Part shown: positions 16,610-64,000 of the stretch, piece after piece
Layout of the letters: every line of letters starts with the position of its first letter
Numbering within the stretch: the first letter of the stretch is position 1
Origin: Peptococcaceae bacterium
Lineage (GTDB): Bacteria; Bacillota; Desulfitobacteriia; Desulfitobacteriales; Syntrophobotulaceae
Reading direction: 5' to 3'
DNA: 64,000 nucleotides
Assembly: GCA_012517475.1 (NCBI GenBank)
Contig: JAAYUV010000062.1
Location: 62,001-126,000, forward strand
Notes under the pieces: generated by a model
What the model saw: the letters and a program-made list of their open reading frames with translations, nothing else
Database searches by the model: none
Told to the model about the DNA's origin: nothing
Position numbers and translations under genes: made by a program

Positions 16610-16652
16610 TTAGTGACTAATTAGTGACTAAGAATGGTCTTTGTGTTATAAT
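16610..16652 (+). promoter_or_regulatory. Promoter with tandem palindromic operator upstream of riboswitch 1
   Basis: Two adjacent exact copies of the 11-bp palindrome TTAGTGACTAA occupy 16610-16631. Sixteen bases downstream is an extended -10 element, TGTTATAAT (TATAAT at 16647-16652), so the palindromes overlap the -35 position. This looks like a repressor operator for the cobalamin leader transcript; the regulator is not identifiable. Confidence 0.55.
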
Positions 16653-16659
16653 GTAAATA

Positions 16660-16805
16660 CTTAGGTTGCTTTGCATTAATAGGGAAACAGGTGAGAATCC
16701 TGTACGGTCCCGCCGCTGTAAGGTGGAGCAGAATTCAAACATGCCACTGTTCGCAATGGGAAGGCTGAATTCGCGATGAAACCAAGTCGGAAGACCTGCC
16801 TAAGT
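16660..16805 (+). ncRNA. Cobalamin riboswitch 1
   Basis: A cobalamin (B12) aptamer. Conserved blocks are visible in order: AGGGAAACAGGTGAGAATCC (16681), GGTCCCGCCGCTGTAA (16706), GCCACTG (16743), AATGGGAAGG (16755) and the B12 box AAGTCGGAAGACCTGCC (16784-16800). A strong terminator 93 bases downstream gives a transcriptional off-switch. No gene of more than a few codons lies between it and the second aptamer, so its output is read-through into riboswitch 2 and cbiM. Confidence 0.9.
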
Positions 16806-16897
16806 CCAATCCACACTGTTTTCACGGAGTATGAAAGGTGTTACATACATGAATTTTGAAGAGTGGCCTTAACTGGTTATTCTTGGATTTTGATGTG

Positions 16898-16935
16898 TAA
16901 CCTCTTCTAACCGCCGGTTAAAAGAGGTTATTTTT
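16898..16935 (+). terminator. Riboswitch 1 expression-platform terminator
   Basis: A stem of TAACCTCTT/AAGAGGTTA (9 bp), one mismatch, then TAACC/GGTTA around a GCC loop, is followed by five T's. It is the likely B12-controlled terminator of riboswitch 1. Confidence 0.85.
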
Positions 16936-17084
16936 ATCAAACAGTATGGAATTATCTTTCGTGGATGGTTTGTTTTTGTACCCTTCCACTATTTTTTTTG
17001 AGGTGAACAAATCGGTCAGTTTGAATTTTAAAAAATTAAGGGATATACACTAAATTTAAGCAATAAAATAGGTGACGATAAGGA

Positions 17085-17240
17085 TAGATTATTTCCTTAT
17101 CGTAAAAAGGGAAGTTGGGTAAAAAGCCCGCGCGGTCCCGCCGCTGTAAATGTGGAGTCCTCCTGAAAATACCACTGGTAGCCCGGGAAGGTTGGGAGGG
17201 TGATGATGCATGAGCCAGAAAACCTGCCTGTTTTATCACC
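17085..17240 (+). ncRNA. Cobalamin riboswitch 2, leader of cbiM
   Basis: A second cobalamin aptamer about 400 bases after the first. The core blocks are GGGAAGTTGGGTAAAAAGCCC (17109), GGTCCCGCCGCTGTAA (17134), ACCACTGG (17171), CGGGAAGG (17184) and AGCCAGAAAACCTGCC (17213-17228). No clear T-tract terminator follows, so it may act on translation of cbiM or of the tiny frame at 17275 (inference). Two B12 aptamers in series in front of one operon suggest two-input or sharpened control. Confidence 0.9.
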
Positions 17241-17379
17241 ATAAAAGCTTTACGAAGGATAAAGAGGTGATTTTATGTGTGTAACGTACTTTTGCGGCTT
17301 TGTGTGACCCAAACCTGCCAGGCTGGAAAAAAACTCGAGCTAGTCATTTGACTGAGGAAAAAACAAATGAGGTGAGATT

Positions 17380-58888: not shown

Positions 58889-59473
58889 ATGGGATTTAAA
58901 ATCGGATTAGACATTGATGGAGTTGTAGCGGACAGTTTCCCTGTTTTTATTGCTGAGCTCAATAAGCATTACGGTAAAAACGTCACTGAAATAGATGATT
59001 ATGATATAGCCAAGGTTTATGGTGTTCCCTGGGATGATATGGATTCTTTCTTCAATGAAAACATGGAGTATCTTTTTTCCACCCCGGAACCTATGGCGGG
59101 GGCATTAGAAACCATCCGCTATTTTCAGGATAAAGGGAATGAGATTTTTTTCGTTACTGCTCGCAGGTGCGGGGGAGAGGAAAGAGTGACACTGGATTGG
59201 TTTGAACGGCACGGAATTCCCCGGGATAAGGCAATTTTCGCCGGGGGGGCAAGTAAAACATTCGCCGTACGCGAACTCGGCATAAATGTTTTTGTAGAGG
59301 ACTTTATGTCCAATGCATTGGAAATTGCTTCGATCGGTGTTCCGGTACTGCTTCTTGATACTCCCTATAACCAAGGGAAAACCCCAAAAGGGGTAACACG
59401 GTGCTATAACTGGAGAGAAATTAAAGAATTGATAGAAGAGATCCAACAAAGGAAGGTATCGCAAAACTACTGA
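58889..59473 (+). CDS. 5'(3')-deoxyribonucleotidase-like HAD protein
   Basis: A 194-residue HAD-superfamily protein of the NT5C/YqfW type. The nucleophile motif is IGLDIDGVVADSF, motif II is FFVTARRCGG, and the acidic motif is FVEDFMSNALEIA. It probably dephosphorylates a nucleotide or related small phosphate. The start codon is the first base after the nadE stop, so translation is likely coupled. The terminator stem overlaps its stop codon. Confidence 0.8.
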   Translation: MGFKIGLDIDGVVADSFPVFIAELNKHYGKNVTEIDDYDIAKVYGVPWDDMDSFFNENMEYLFSTPEPMAGALETIRYFQDKGNEIFFVTARRCGGEERVTLDWFERHGIPRDKAIFAGGASKTFAVRELGINVFVEDFMSNALEIASIGVPVLLLDTPYNQGKTPKGVTRCYNWREIKELIEEIQQRKVSQNY

Positions 59474-59496
59474 AAAGTAGTGAGCGATACTTTTTT
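59455..59496 (+). terminator. Terminator overlapping the nucleotidase stop codon
   Basis: GGTATCGC/GCGATAC outer stem and ACTACT/AGTAGT inner stem followed by six T's. The stop codon (TGA at 59471) is in the loop. Confidence 0.9.
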
Positions 59497-59543
59497 CCTT
59501 AATGGCTGTTCTTTGCATGACTGAATAAACCAGCCCAGGGCAG

Positions 59544-59733
59544 GGCTACGTAATGTATAGACGCTTTCGGCAGCGTAAAGGCATGGCAGGCCTTTACGAC
59601 CCTCCATGGCGAGCCGCTCCTTGCCATCCATGGCATCGCGGCACTAGGCCATCCTTGGCCGTTGAAACAGCCGCACTCCGCATCCCGTTACGCATGCGTA
59701 ACGCGCTTGACGCTGTCTATACATTACATAGCC
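59544..59733. repeat. Modular palindromic repeat, copy E
   Basis: The outer arms GGCTACGTAATGTATAGAC (59544-59562) and its complement (59715-59733) pair at 18 of 19 positions. Inside come GCTTTCGGCAGC, GTAAAGGC...GCCTTTAC, CCATGG, GCCATCCATGGC, ATCGCGGCACTAG, GGCCATCCTTGGCC, CAGCCGCACTCCGCATC and GTTACGCATGCGTAAC, in the order of copy D. A coding-like frame covers it by chance. The element ends three bases before a truncated gene remnant. Confidence 0.88.
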
Positions 59734-59736
59734 TAG

Positions 59737-59889
59737 TCTCAAGCTTTATCCGATGATAAGTTAGTATATGGAGAGTATTGCCTATCTTATATACTAAAAG
59801 AATTTTTTAAAGGAAAATTATGGAGAAATGTAGAATATCCTGATGAGCAGCAAATATTAAGAAATTGTTTTACTGTTTTTAAGAGATAG
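59737..59889 (+). pseudogene. 3' remnant of a gene cut at the repeat
   Basis: Immediately beyond copy E a frame without a start codon reads SQALSDDKLVYGEYCLSYIL, continues KEFFKGKLWRNVEYPDEQQI, and ends LRNCFTVFKR before a TAG. The composition is that of an ordinary soluble protein C-terminus, not of repeat DNA. I do not recognise the family. It suggests that an upstream part was deleted when the repeat or flanking DNA rearranged (inference). Confidence 0.45.
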
Positions 59890-59891
59890 AA

Positions 59892-59990
59892 ATGAGGCTA
59901 ATGTCTATAATGGGAAGTAACAAACAAAATATGAGTATTCCATTTAATGAAGAAACAGTTTTCTCTACAGGAGTAACATTTTTCAACTAA
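59892..59990 (+). CDS. Possible 32-residue peptide
   Basis: A short frame starting two bases after the preceding stop reads MRLMSIMGSNKQNMSIPFNE and ends ETVFSTGVTFFN. It has only a weak ribosome site (AAGAGATAG). It could be a remnant of the same lost operon as the fragment before it. Low certainty. Confidence 0.2.
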   Translation: MRLMSIMGSNKQNMSIPFNEETVFSTGVTFFN

Positions 59991-60054: not shown

Positions 60055-60190
60055 TTGACATTGACACCAGTGCTTCTATATAATGATAAATGTAAAAATA
60101 TTTATATTTTTCATCCGAATTATTAAGAATAATAAAGTATTGAAGAGATATTTGGGCTAAAAAGCTATTATTGAGCTTTTTAGCCTTTTT
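60055..60190 (+). ncRNA. Possible small RNA: consensus promoter followed closely by a terminator
   Basis: TTGACA (60055-60060), 18 bases, TATAAT (60079-60084) predict a start near 60091. A 12-bp perfect stem GGCTAAAAAGCT/AGCTTTTTAGCC (60155-60185) with five T's lies about 65 bases further. The transcript would be about 100 bases, without a credible reading frame, and contains a small ATTATT/AATAAT hairpin. It is either a small RNA or an attenuated leader of the downstream CBASS operon. Confidence 0.5.
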
Positions 60191-60297
60191 ACTTTGGACA
60201 TAGAATATATTAAAATAGACTTAGCAAAAAATGGGTGCCTTTAAATGAATCCAGAGAGATTCATAAGGTTCTTTAAAATTGGATGTCTGGTTATAAT

Positions 60298-60336
60298 CCG
60301 GCTTGATTTGTAAGAATCTTGCCGGTATTTATTTTT
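60298..60336 (+). terminator. Terminator-like hairpin upstream of the CBASS operon
   Basis: CCGGC-TT-GATT pairs with AATC-TT-GCCGG, followed by TATTTATTTTT. It is the second + strand terminator-like element in the leader region. Confidence 0.6.
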
Positions 60337-60360
60337 AAAAGGGGTGATTAAATAAAAAAT

Positions 60361-60387
60361 TAATCCCACAGATAGTGTGTGGGATTA
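60361..60387 (-). terminator. Leftward terminator
   Basis: A perfect 10-bp stem TAATCCCACA/TGTGGGATTA with a 7-base loop. Only on the - strand is it followed by a T run (ATTTTTTATTT), so it would stop leftward transcription coming from 60390-60600. Confidence 0.65.
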
Positions 60388-60416
60388 ACTAAAAAGTGGT
60401 ATCGGTAGATATGTAA

Positions 60417-60524
60417 AAATGGCAGGACTACCGAACCATTGCCAGAGAAGGATTGCCGTCCTTACCCTGTAAAATAAGAAATCAAAAAGATAATTAGACA
60501 ATATCTTAAAAATTCCTGCCATTT
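60417..60524. ncRNA. Putative structured RNA element before the CD-NTase gene
   Basis: AAATGGCAGGA (60417-60427) pairs perfectly with TCCTGCCATTT (60514-60524), closing a region with two internal hairpins: AAGGA/TCCTT (about 60448-60464) and AAGATA/TATCTT (60487-60507). TGGCA at 60420 could alternatively pair with TGCCA at 60440, giving two exclusive folds. On the + strand it ends 36 bases before the CD-NTase start. On the - strand it precedes the leftward terminator at 60361. Orientation and function are unknown. Confidence 0.45.
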
Positions 60525-60560
60525 CAATGTTAATTTTATAGAAAAGAGAGGAATTTTTAC

Positions 60561-61712
60561 ATGATTGATATCCTATCAAATCAAGTTATTCAAATTGAGG
60601 ATTTGCTCAATCGAATTGGAGACAAGCTCCAGTTAAATAAAACTAGAAGAGAAACCATTGAGAAAAGTTACTCTACAATTGCAAGATTATTTGACAATGA
60701 CGATGGTTTATTCAAAGGAGTTGCCGTAGATATCTACCCCCAAGGTTCGTATAGAATAGGGACCACTGTAAGGCCAATACACCAAAATGAATATGACTTA
60801 GACTTTGTATTACAGCCTCAAATGCTTTGGAGAGAGGGACTTAACCCTTTAGAAGTCTTGAAACATGTTCAATCAAGAATTGTTTTATCAAAGGAGTATG
60901 AAAACAAAACCGAAATTTTAAAAAGATGCGTTAGAATAAACTATACAGATTATCATATGGATATTCTTCCAGCTTTCCCTGAAAGATATATTCAAAATTT
61001 AAGTGTGAAAGTCCCTGATAAAAAATTGAAAGATTGGAAAGATAGCTGTCCCAAGGGCTACGCAAAGTGGTTCGAACTTAGGTGTTTGCAAAGAAAACAC
61101 ATTGCCCTTGAAAAAATGGCAAAAATAGAACCGCTTCCACAGGAAATGCCATATGAATTTAAAGAACCACTGCAAAGAGCTGTTCAGATAATTAAGCGAA
61201 GTCGGGATATATTTTTTGAAGATAAACCAGATTTTAGCCCAATTAGTATTATTTTGACTACCTTAGCAGCAAAATACTATGATGGCGAGTCAACAGCTTT
61301 TGAAGCTGTATGTAACATAGTCGAGCAAATCAATTGTGAAATCCAGAAAACGGTTGGGGTGATGGAAGTCTATAATCCCATTAACGAAAACGAGAAATTT
61401 AGTGAAAAATGGGATAATAATAATTTTCTTTATAAGGCTTTTAAAGATTTTATGCAGTATCTTAAAGAACAATTCATTAATCTAAAAAATGCAAGGGGTA
61501 TTGCACAGGTAAATCAAATTTTGAAACAACTACTTGGAGAAACATTATCCGAGGAAGCAATTAATGAACAAGCATTTTATGTTAATAAAAGCAGAAATAA
61601 TCAAAGCTTAGGAATTGTTAAACCTGCAGCAGCTCTTACAATAATTTCGCCAGGTAGCTTTGATAAGGAGTCAGTACAACCTATACGAAAGCATAATTTC
61701 TATGGGGTTTAA
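60561..61712 (+). CDS. CBASS cGAS/DncV-like nucleotidyltransferase (CD-NTase)
   Basis: A 383-residue signalling nucleotidyltransferase that on phage infection makes a cyclic oligonucleotide. The catalytic core is visible: GS at residues 62-63 (QGSYRIGTTVRP), metal aspartates D79 and D81 (EYDLDFVLQP) and D134 (YHMDILPAFP). The C-terminal half is the helical substrate-binding part (KEPLQRAVQIIKRSRDIFF). GAGAGGAA precedes the ATG. The next gene encodes an E2-like protein three bases on, defining a short type II CBASS operon. The clade and the nucleotide product cannot be settled by eye. Confidence 0.9.
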   Translation: MIDILSNQVIQIEDLLNRIGDKLQLNKTRRETIEKSYSTIARLFDNDDGLFKGVAVDIYPQGSYRIGTTVRPIHQNEYDLDFVLQPQMLWREGLNPLEVLKHVQSRIVLSKEYENKTEILKRCVRINYTDYHMDILPAFPERYIQNLSVKVPDKKLKDWKDSCPKGYAKWFELRCLQRKHIALEKMAKIEPLPQEMPYEFKEPLQRAVQIIKRSRDIFFEDKPDFSPISIILTTLAAKYYDGESTAFEAVCNIVEQINCEIQKTVGVMEVYNPINENEKFSEKWDNNNFLYKAFKDFMQYLKEQFINLKNARGIAQVNQILKQLLGETLSEEAINEQAFYVNKSRNNQSLGIVKPAAALTIISPGSFDKESVQPIRKHNFYGV

Positions 61713-61715
61713 TTT

Positions 61716-62171
61716 ATGAAGAAAAAAGAATTCCCTAATTACAAAAAGAAGGTTGTAACCATTGCTGGCCAAAGGGAAGCTATGTTGAATGCATATCCGG
61801 AATTTAAGTGTACTTGGGATAAAAATAATATTTCATGGATTGGAGAAATAAGGCCCACACCAATTAGTGATTCGTATAAAATTTGTATTTTTTACTCTCT
61901 GGAGATACCCCCAAAGGTCAAAGTATTAAGTCCGAGTCTCAAAACATTTAATAATCAACCAATTCCCCACATGTATCATCAGAAGGAACTTTGTCTCTTC
62001 TATCCCCCTAAAAAAGAATGGACAAGACAAGATTTAATTGCCGAAACTATAATCCCTTGGACTTCTGAATGGTTATATTTTTATGAAGTCTGGCAGGTAA
62101 CAGGTGAGTGGAATGGTGAAGGCATACATCTAGTGAAAGGAACGAGAAATATTCTCGTGGAAGAGCAGTAA
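61716..62171 (+). CDS. CBASS E2-like conjugating protein (short type II)
   Basis: A 151-residue stand-alone E2-fold protein. The likely catalytic cysteine is C93 in KELCLFYPPKKEW, preceded by histidines (PHMYHQ), with family-typical TIIPWTSEWLYFYEVWQVTGEWNGEGIHL behind it. In short type II CBASS such E2-only proteins modify the C-terminus of the CD-NTase without E1 or deconjugase. It starts three bases after the CD-NTase stop and ends one base before the HNH gene start. Confidence 0.85.
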   Translation: MKKKEFPNYKKKVVTIAGQREAMLNAYPEFKCTWDKNNISWIGEIRPTPISDSYKICIFYSLEIPPKVKVLSPSLKTFNNQPIPHMYHQKELCLFYPPKKEWTRQDLIAETIIPWTSEWLYFYEVWQVTGEWNGEGIHLVKGTRNILVEEQ

Positions 62172-62172
62172 A

Positions 62173-62544
62173 ATGATAAAAGAAGTTACTAGAAATATTA
62201 ATAGAAATGTTGAAATGGAATTATGGGCTAGAGCTGCTGGCCGATGTCAATTTGCTGGATGCAATCGTCTCCTTTATAAATCCCCAGTAACCCAAGAGAC
62301 GGTGAATATTTCAGAAAAGGCACATATATATTCGTTTTCCGAAGATGGTCCCCGTGGCTGGGGACCATTTAAACGAAACCCCAAGAATTTGAATAATATA
62401 GAAAACCTTATGCTTATGTGTCATGACTGCCATAAAACAATTGATCAAGATAAACAAGGAATAAAATATTCGGCAACTTTGTTACAACAATGGAAAAGTG
62501 ATCATGAGCGAAGAATTGTTACTGTTACTGGAATATCGAATTGA
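62173..62544 (+). CDS. CBASS effector, HNH nuclease part (Cap5-like, split)
   Basis: 123 residues forming the N-terminal HNH endonuclease of a Cap5-type HNH-SAVED effector. Zinc/HNH features are C25 and C30 (GRCQFAGC), H51 (EKAHIYSFSEDGPRGWGPF) and C83, C86, H87 (NLMLMCHDCHKTIDQD). In full-length homologues the chain continues past HERRI...VTGI into SAVED. Here it ends at VTGISN with a TGA, and the SAVED sequence continues in another frame that overlaps by 47 bases. It may still be an independent small nuclease, but without its sensor it should be unregulated or inactive (inference). Confidence 0.82.
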   Translation: MIKEVTRNINRNVEMELWARAAGRCQFAGCNRLLYKSPVTQETVNISEKAHIYSFSEDGPRGWGPFKRNPKNLNNIENLMLMCHDCHKTIDQDKQGIKYSATLLQQWKSDHERRIVTVTGISN

Positions 62545-63091
62545 AGAACAAAACCCCGCTCATTTTTCTGTATTTGCATTTGCTCCCATGCCGCTTTTAA
62601 TTCAATTAGGAACCCTGTTTACTGACAAAATTGATGTTGATGTTTATCAACCAATTAGGGAGCCAAAAACTTGGAAATGGCAGCAGTTCCCCGATGGCTT
62701 TGACTTTGTCGTAAAAAGGCCAAATACCATCAAAGGTGTTCCAGCACTAGTTATATCACTCAGTGATAAAATTTCTTATGATCGAATATTTAGTGTCCTA
62801 GGTGAAGATGTTTCAATTTGGGAACTAACAGTTGAAGATAAGTTTATCGGGAATGACAATATTAGGTCGCAGGCTCAATTGTCATTATTCAGAACTAATA
62901 TTCGGGAACTTATGGTCCTAATTAAAGAACAACATGGATTTGGTACACCGTTATCAATCTTCCCTACAATGGCCGTTTCATGCTCAATAGAAATGGGTAG
63001 AGTTAGAATGCCAAAAGCGGATATGCCTTGGGTAATTTATGATCAAAATAATGAAGTTGGAAAATTTATCGAGGCATTGACAATTACTTGA
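62498..63091 (+). CDS. CBASS effector, SAVED sensor part (Cap5-like, split, partly deleted)
   Basis: 197 residues matching the second half of a SAVED domain, which binds the CBASS cyclic nucleotide: HFSVFAFAPMPLLIQLGTLF, TWKWQQFPDGFDFVVK, LSDKISYDRIFSVLGEDVSIWELTVE and MAVSCSIEMGRVRMPKADMP. The first CARF-like half, expected between the HNH domain and this point (roughly 70-80 residues in homologues as I recall them), is not present in any frame. Possible starts (62498, 62504) lie inside the HNH gene with poor ribosome sites. The most likely reading is a decayed single gene made by an internal deletion at the TTACTG repeat near 62515. Confidence 0.8.
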   Translation: MIMSEELLLLLEYRIEEQNPAHFSVFAFAPMPLLIQLGTLFTDKIDVDVYQPIREPKTWKWQQFPDGFDFVVKRPNTIKGVPALVISLSDKISYDRIFSVLGEDVSIWELTVEDKFIGNDNIRSQAQLSLFRTNIRELMVLIKEQHGFGTPLSIFPTMAVSCSIEMGRVRMPKADMPWVIYDQNNEVGKFIEALTIT

Positions 63092-63261
63092 GTAGTATAA
63101 AATGAGAATACAAGGTATTAGTATAGCTAAACGGTTATTATCTTCGCAGGATTATCCATATACCAGTTAGGCTAATAATCGGTAGTTCGGTAGACTTGCT
63201 GTTATAGCAATAATGGAAAGTTAAGTATTAATTATCCATATCAATGATGGGAGGGAAAAGT

Positions 63262-63498
63262 ATGCCACGAAAAAGTGTACACGTTATTCCTAACAATAAC
63301 CAAGGCGGATGGAGCGTAAAAAAAGGTGGCGCACAGCGGGCGAGCGTACATACAGAGACAAAATCAGATGCTATAAAGATGGGGCGAGTTATCAGCCAGC
63401 GTTCGGGCAGTGAATTAATTATTCATGGAAAAGACGGGAAAATACAAAGGGCCGACAGCCATGGCAAGGATCCGTGCCCTCCGAAAGATCAGAAGTAG
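63262..63498 (+). CDS. DUF2188 domain protein
   Basis: A 78-residue DUF2188 protein with the family pattern VHVIPNNNQGGWSVKKGGAQRAS, then GRVISQRSGSELIIHGKDGKIQ. It is small, basic and soluble; the function is unknown. The ATG at 63262 has GGGAGG seven bases upstream, which excludes two in-frame ATGs inside that site. It is often seen in accessory DNA and here lies just beyond the CBASS operon. Confidence 0.8.
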   Translation: MPRKSVHVIPNNNQGGWSVKKGGAQRASVHTETKSDAIKMGRVISQRSGSELIIHGKDGKIQRADSHGKDPCPPKDQK

Positions 63499-63513
63499 CA
63501 GGTGGTGAAAGTT

Positions 63514-64000
63514 ATGCGAAAAAGGAGACCTGTAATAGCGCTAATGTATGATTTTGACAAAACACTCTGTACAAAAGACATGCAGGAATATACATTTATC
63601 CCCAATATTGGTATGAAAGCTAAAGATTTTTGGTCCGAATCTAATTTGCTCGCAAAAAATAAAAAGATGGATAAAATTCTTGCATATATGTATGTTATGC
63701 TCGACAAAGCTCATGCAGCTAAACAAAGCATACGTCGAGAGGAATTTGTAAAACTGGGCAAAAATCTCGAATTTTTTCCAGGAGTAGAAGAATGGTTTCA
63801 ACGAATAAATCTGATTGGCGATGATTTGGGAGAAAAGTAGAGCACTTTATCATTTCCTCCGGCCTTCATGAAATCATCGAAGGTTCCAGTATTTATAAGA
63901 ATTTTAATGAGGTCTTTGCCTGTGAATTCTTATACGATGAAAACGATGTGGCTTATAGTTTTGCGACACCTTCTTATCTTTATACTTTGAAGAACAAGTA
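63514..64000 (+). pseudogene. HAD-family phosphatase, frameshifted, 3' end outside window
   Basis: The N-terminus has the HAD nucleophile motif ALMYDFDKTLCTKDM and continues to LIGDDLGEK, where a TAG stops it at 63838. Adding one A to the GAAAAG run at 63833-63837 restores the frame into VEHFIISSGLHEIIEGSSIY and FACEFLYDENDVA, the expected continuation of this family, open to the window end. So a one-base deletion in an A run has broken the gene, unless it is a sequencing error. The ATG at 63514 is used, behind AGGTGG. Confidence 0.75.

Follow-up and report, generated by a model that had tools for sequence, protein, structure and literature searches.

A PyrR-type attenuator and a predicted ribosome site-masking hairpin in the region upstream of a CBASS locus from a Peptococcaceae bacterium

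CBASS kills its own cell, and its expression must therefore be held down. The CBASS regulators that we found in the literature are proteins: a WYL factor (PMC9122588) and CapK/CapS (PMC13373217) would each hold down a suicidal defence operon by acting on transcription. The CBASS operon described here contains no regulator gene. The operon lies near the right end of a 64,000-nucleotide stretch of a Peptococcaceae contig, referred to below as the window. An original prediction had placed a putative structured RNA of about 108 bases (60417-60524) directly before the operon, as either a leader controlling the CD-NTase gene or a leftward antisense RNA.

The operon begins on the plus strand with a CD-NTase (cyclase) of 383 aa (60561-61712; PADLOC cyclase PDLC00815, E 4.5e-112; Pfam SMODS), followed by an E2-like protein of 151 aa (61716-62171; PADLOC E2 PDLC00876, E 1.7e-48). 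The third gene, for an HNH-SAVED effector (62173-63091, plus strand), is apparently broken, with HNH at 62173-62544 and SAVED in another frame at 62498-63091. The two parts match profile positions 1-118 (HNH) and 192-376 (SAVED) of 378, leaving ∼75 residues missing. In relatives, HNH and SAVED share one frame and ∼250 bases lie between the parts; here there are 26. Judged from this comparison, the gene appears to have suffered an internal loss of ∼230 bases and a frameshift. Of the three components of a short type II CBASS, the cyclase and E2 are thus present and an intact effector is not; the locus is possibly not working, and we doubt that it functions, unless the effector pieces operate as separate proteins.

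The surroundings are those of an island. In relatives, downstream of a 5′-nucleotidase-like gene (58889-59473 here) come a carboxypeptidase-like gene in convergent orientation and a gene resembling Mur ligases (names read from the sequences). Here, ∼4.5 kb is inserted, comprising a dispersed repeat, the leaders, CBASS, a DUF2188 gene and a frameshifted HAD-like gene, and this island is absent at the same place in relatives. The dispersed repeat copy (59474-59916) has 56 matches in the genome and a 19-bp terminal inverted repeat (59544-59562/59715-59733). The DUF2188 gene (63244-63498; PADLOC candidate PDC-S16) adjoins CBASS; a Hymenobacter plasmid likewise carries such a gene (L070:2580-2801) adjacent to a CBASS cyclase. 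The HAD-like phosphatase gene (63502-64000), at the right edge of the island, ends early and is frameshifted near 63840; it is probably a pseudogene. Elsewhere in the window, 16646-17245 holds a tandem pair of cobalamin riboswitches, 235 bases apart.

We examined the proposed 108-base element as a sequence and as a fold. The perfect 11-bp closing stem that had been described is there: its arms, AAATGGCAGGA (60417-60427, plus strand; strand A) and TCCTGCCATTT (60514-60524), are complementary at 11 of 11 positions, with a duplex energy of −16.5 kcal/mol. The two inner hairpins also appear when the 108 nt are folded alone, and TGGCA (60420-60424) and TGCCA (60440-60444), put forward as an alternative pairing, are both present. 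In isolation, 60417-60524 folds at −25.0 kcal/mol (z −4.57), and none of 200 shuffles was as good. Perfect 11-bp inverted repeats with a span of 40-110 occur four times in the window against 1.3 expected from shuffles. Shuffling the 228 nt upstream of the CD-NTase gene produced such a repeat 0.8% of the time and, in 3000 shuffles, never one containing five G/C or more. With a z of −5.0, the segment 60333-60560 exceeds most of the window in predicted structure; 2.5% of 200 background segments fell below −4.

The stem does not survive as a predicted fold once its natural flanks are included. Its probability in context is 0.00, and two other segments, 60395-60441 and 60507-60559, form stronger structures. 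The value was 0.00 for RNAs starting at 60091, 60223, 60333, 60390 or 60400, and rose, to 0.39, only when the start was trimmed to 60411 and half of the first competing hairpin was lost. That hairpin, S1 (60395-60441, plus strand; −18.5 kcal/mol, z −4.98), formed in the predicted folds containing it and carries arm A in its loop. Forcing the nested stem gave structures 8.8-15 kcal/mol worse than the best fold. The stem had looked dominant because exactly 60417-60524 was excised. It is real and locally unusual, yet these models make it unlikely to be the working fold.

The second competing structure involves the start site of the cyclase. Strand B (60507-60524, plus strand) can pair either with A, giving the 11-bp stem, or with the Shine-Dalgarno region. 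Its first part pairs perfectly over 11 bp with the latter, AGGAATTTTTA (60549-60559; strand C), and the resulting B-C hairpin (60507-60559, plus strand; −13.5 kcal/mol) masks the CD-NTase Shine-Dalgarno site. The predicted cost of opening this site is 10.0 kcal/mol, whereas shuffles that kept the site averaged 3.7 and were as high in 3 of 300. In 14 other genes of the window the cost ranged from 0.7 to 4.6 kcal/mol, making CD-NTase the highest of 15, and the 20 CBASS relatives, at 0.6-7.2 kcal/mol, were all below this locus. From this cost, the cyclase is predicted to be poorly translated unless the leader is opened. Since the CBASS relatives are not masked to this degree, masking is not a family trait.

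A-B pairing and the masking hairpin are mutually exclusive. The 11-bp stem and S1 are compatible solely as an H-type pseudoknot, with 13 pairs in S1, no bases between the helices on one side and a long third loop. With A and B reserved and the −16.5 kcal/mol duplex added, this state comes to −47.5 kcal/mol before any pseudoknot penalty, against −46.2 kcal/mol for the masked fold; the two states are therefore close in energy. A third pairing, of 60411-60420 with 60553-60562, links A to the start codon, so that strands A, B and C are pairwise complementary. Such a pattern would be expected of a translational switch, but AT-rich sequence also favours it. On these energies, the stem could still arise in the form of an H-type pseudoknot, releasing the Shine-Dalgarno site, and would at most be one state of a start-site switch.

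Outside the coordinates of the original prediction, and missed by it, lies a PyrR-type attenuator (60234-60332, plus strand). It matches RF00515 over the full length with 43.0 bits (E 2.6e-4), a match found with Rfam at a relaxed threshold; the curators' cut-off is 54 bits. The binding hairpin CCTTTAAATGAATCCAGAGAGATTCATAAGG (60236-60268) shows the RF00515 pattern of a CCTTTAA...AAGG stem and a TCC-GAGAG type loop, here TCCAGAGAG between CCTTTAAA and AAGG. It is followed by an antiterminator (60265-60273/60312-60320), which overlaps the binding hairpin, and a terminator stem (60298-60325) with a U-rich tail. The terminator fold (−29.1 kcal/mol) and antiterminator fold (−31.0 kcal/mol) are predicted to be intact, nearly equal and mutually exclusive. 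Across the whole genome, the four best RF00515 matches were the uraA leader (49.6 bits), the pyrB leader (44.0), the CBASS leader (43.0) and the pyrR leader (42.8); the next reached 31.3, and the two matches at ∼31 bits lack the loop motif. None of the four leaders, the CBASS leader included, reaches 54 bits, and for that reason we call the element PyrR-type. Given the scores of the genome's own uraA, pyrB and pyrR leaders, we consider this cut-off too strict here. The genome also encodes PyrR protein, with NCBIfam PyrR equivalogs scoring up to 262.6 bits (cut-off 138).

What sets this attenuator apart is its context. PyrR attenuators of family RF00515 are known from pyr operons and uracil permease genes of Gram-positive bacteria, and the present one shares with them the binding hairpin with its conserved loop, the antiterminator, the terminator and a PyrR-encoding genome. 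It differs in what lies downstream, which is CBASS and not a gene of pyrimidine metabolism. The best 30 PyrR leaders in relatives all accompany uraA or pyrR/pyrB. Here the usual pyrimidine-gene context is absent; CD-NTase follows with no other gene in between, and a search for a pyr gene remnant in the island found none. Between attenuator and CD-NTase gene lie 228 nt that include a leftward terminator. The other three leaders of this genome have the loops TCCCGTGAGA or TCCTGTGAGA, whereas the TCCAGAGAG form of the CBASS leader recurs within the order, in a leader of pyrR-pyrB (L033). From these loop sequences, the CBASS leader is unlikely to have been copied recently from another leader of this genome.

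Taken together, the folded RNA region before the CBASS operon is real and looks regulatory, and its main parts are the PyrR-type switch and the hairpin over the ribosome-binding site; the 108-base stem is not among them. The idea of a leader controlling CD-NTase is thus supported as regards a structured leader and fails for the 108-base element, which is not the predicted fold and has no counterpart at related operons.

Transcription signals on the plus strand were also surveyed. A weak promoter-like site, TTTACT-17-TAAAAT (60188-60216), agrees with the consensus at 9 of 12 positions, a chance-level score when taken alone. An RNA from it would start near 60223, just before the PyrR-type site, a position as for a pyr leader. 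The scan between the attenuator and the CD-NTase gene gave no better promoter-like site. Further upstream, TTGACA-18-TATAAT (60055-60084, plus strand) matches at 12 of 12 positions and is followed 70 bases on by a terminator-like stem of 13 pairs (60154-60186, plus strand); this promoter and intrinsic terminator (60055-60186) might define a small RNA of ∼95 nt or the far end of a leader.

We then looked for the leader at related loci. A scan of species-representative genomes returned 27 cyclase relatives, the closest 40-46% identical. Upstream of these and of one plasmid relative (28 loci), no shared sequence, closing stem or PyrR-type leader was found. The covariance search upstream of related CBASS operons, which had been suggested as a check, gave no match for either the excised fold or the in-context fold, though homologues at ≤46% identity have diverged too far for covariation of the leader to be tested fairly. 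A sample of 299 genomes from the phylum yielded a single covariance match (L112, 29.2 bits), upstream of a gene resembling a sensor kinase that has an EutH-like gene as its neighbour; it was judged to be chance because a nonsense match within the window scores 24.8. No DNA relatives beyond chance were detected in plasmids, phages, viral contigs, the family or the class, and the leader is known from one genome only. An origin as repeat or mobile element ends was rejected, since 60300-60561, unlike 59474-59916, has no second copy in the genome; among Rfam riboswitches, none matched 60417-60524 convincingly. This evidence speaks against a conserved CBASS-associated RNA family, and a young, local element would remain compatible with it.

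In eight Bacillaceae relatives (L048, L072, L074, L075, L077, L080, L087 and L090), a GAAC-N4-ATTCG motif lies 30-62 bases upstream of the cyclase match; these positions account for eight of its nine occurrences in all 28 loci, with one other copy elsewhere, and the window has none near CBASS. We take the motif to resemble the LexA/DinR SOS box of Bacillus. Judging by this motif, CBASS relatives may be SOS-controlled, with an RNA leader at this operon instead.

The reading that we put forward, tentatively and with confidence short of even, is that two stacked RNA controls act on a short type II CBASS, namely UMP/PyrR attenuation and translational masking, with the 11-bp stem as a possible opening partner. 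From the computed motif and its genome rank, the competing pairings and their energies, we infer a start site, an action of PyrR on CBASS, a pseudoknot and any inducer. The RNA would begin near 60223 and pass through the attenuator. With UMP plentiful, PyrR-UMP would hold the binding hairpin and transcription would stop at the terminator; with UMP low, the antiterminator would form and RNA polymerase would read into CBASS. On the read-through mRNA, pairing of B with the Shine-Dalgarno region would leave the cyclase poorly translated, and capture of B by arm A in the S1 loop, as an H-type pseudoknot, would free the ribosome site. In favour of this reading are a PyrR-type score like those of the genome's pyr leaders and clearly above the rest, and a Shine-Dalgarno opening cost above those of the window genes and the 20 CBASS relatives. 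Further points for it are the conserved binding stem and loop with intact terminator and antiterminator folds, the PyrR encoded in the genome, the absence of another gene or of a better plus-strand promoter-like site between attenuator and CD-NTase gene, and an A-B pairing that is incompatible with the masking hairpin and, as a pseudoknot, close to it in energy. Against it stand the CBASS relatives, in which PyrR-type leaders, the stem and strong masking are all absent; an RF00515 score below 54; a start-site prediction at chance level; the 228 nt and leftward terminator before the gene; and the restriction to one genome. Because the effector looks broken, selection for regulation may also be gone. 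The specific proposal that CBASS is under UMP/PyrR attenuation, being transcribed as the UMP pool falls, and that a further switch, between pseudoknot and masking, operates at its ribosome site, we hold to be doubtful.

The apparently broken effector gene makes a relic leader a serious rival, which is itself plausible without reaching an even chance. The PyrR-type leader would have come with, or been left from, another gene, and CBASS would lie downstream of it by chance, within an island undergoing decay; the start-codon pairings would be a tolerated AT-rich coincidence, and CBASS would be transcribed from an unrecognised promoter or hardly read. The absence of the island from relatives at the same place, the broken effector and HAD genes, the lack of conservation anywhere and the restriction of the best 30 PyrR leaders in relatives to pyr genes all fit this account. 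It is harder to square with an island that holds no pyr gene trace, with a terminator, antiterminator and binding loop that are all intact, and with masking far outside the range of neighbouring genes. We regard two-layer control and a relic as about level.

The remaining explanations retain elements of the original prediction. The minus-strand terminator with a T tract that it had reported is present (60358-60390; 13 pairs, loop 7), the stem running from 60390 to 60358 and then into TTTTATTTAA in the scan's tail. An RNA starting at ∼60490-60580 and ending there, near 60358, could be antisense to the leader or encode a small hydrophobic peptide: a minus-strand hydrophobic ORF (60385-60520; 46 codons with the stop from ATG, 64 aa from TTG) has its stop at 60385, inside the terminator stem. 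However, the minus-strand promoter-like sites reach 9/12, which is chance level, the peptide has no Pfam or plasmid relatives, and the DNA has no relatives. Of the leftward antisense RNA, then, a good terminator stands and a convincing promoter is missing, and we consider such an RNA improbable. Least probable, and in our view very much so, is that the closed 108-base structure is itself functional, either as a riboswitch-like RNA or as one that binds protein, and that TGGCA/TGCCA pairing provides its alternative state. The stem is perfect, locally rare and folds well in isolation, and by excluding the masking hairpin it would be the ON state, but the cost of forcing it, its probability of 0.00 with flanks and the absence of a homologue or a fitting Rfam match all argue otherwise.

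Returning to the two-layer reading, masking of a defence gene finds its closest parallel in the abiD1 leader of Lactococcus (PMC2661086). That leader contains a terminator and then a stem-loop that sequesters the ribosome site, and the gene behind it acts in abortive infection. A stem-loop over the ribosome site is likewise predicted here. At abiD1, opening of translation by a phage protein was shown experimentally, whereas here the gene is a CD-NTase and the masking a prediction. AbiF/RCd22 of Clostridioides difficile (PMC12373285, RF03085) also pairs a defence-gene leader RNA with premature termination before the coding sequence, but has abiF motifs, of which this locus has none, and is described as an RNA antitoxin. 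A structured RNA is connected with a CD-NTase in the case of cabRNA and CdnE03 (PMC10686824), but that is a phage RNA which binds and activates the enzyme, as opposed to a putative cis leader. Our literature search found no relevant paper linking PyrR or a riboswitch to CBASS control. In Lactococcus, phage infection lowered pyr expression by up to 36-fold, for which the authors suggest PyrR and raised UMP (PMC10986495). Under PyrR control, CBASS expression should rise as UMP falls, so that the sign during infection could even be repression. If the reading is true, the PyrR-type leader would couple an abortive defence to the supply of nucleotides, and this supply is disturbed when phages infect.
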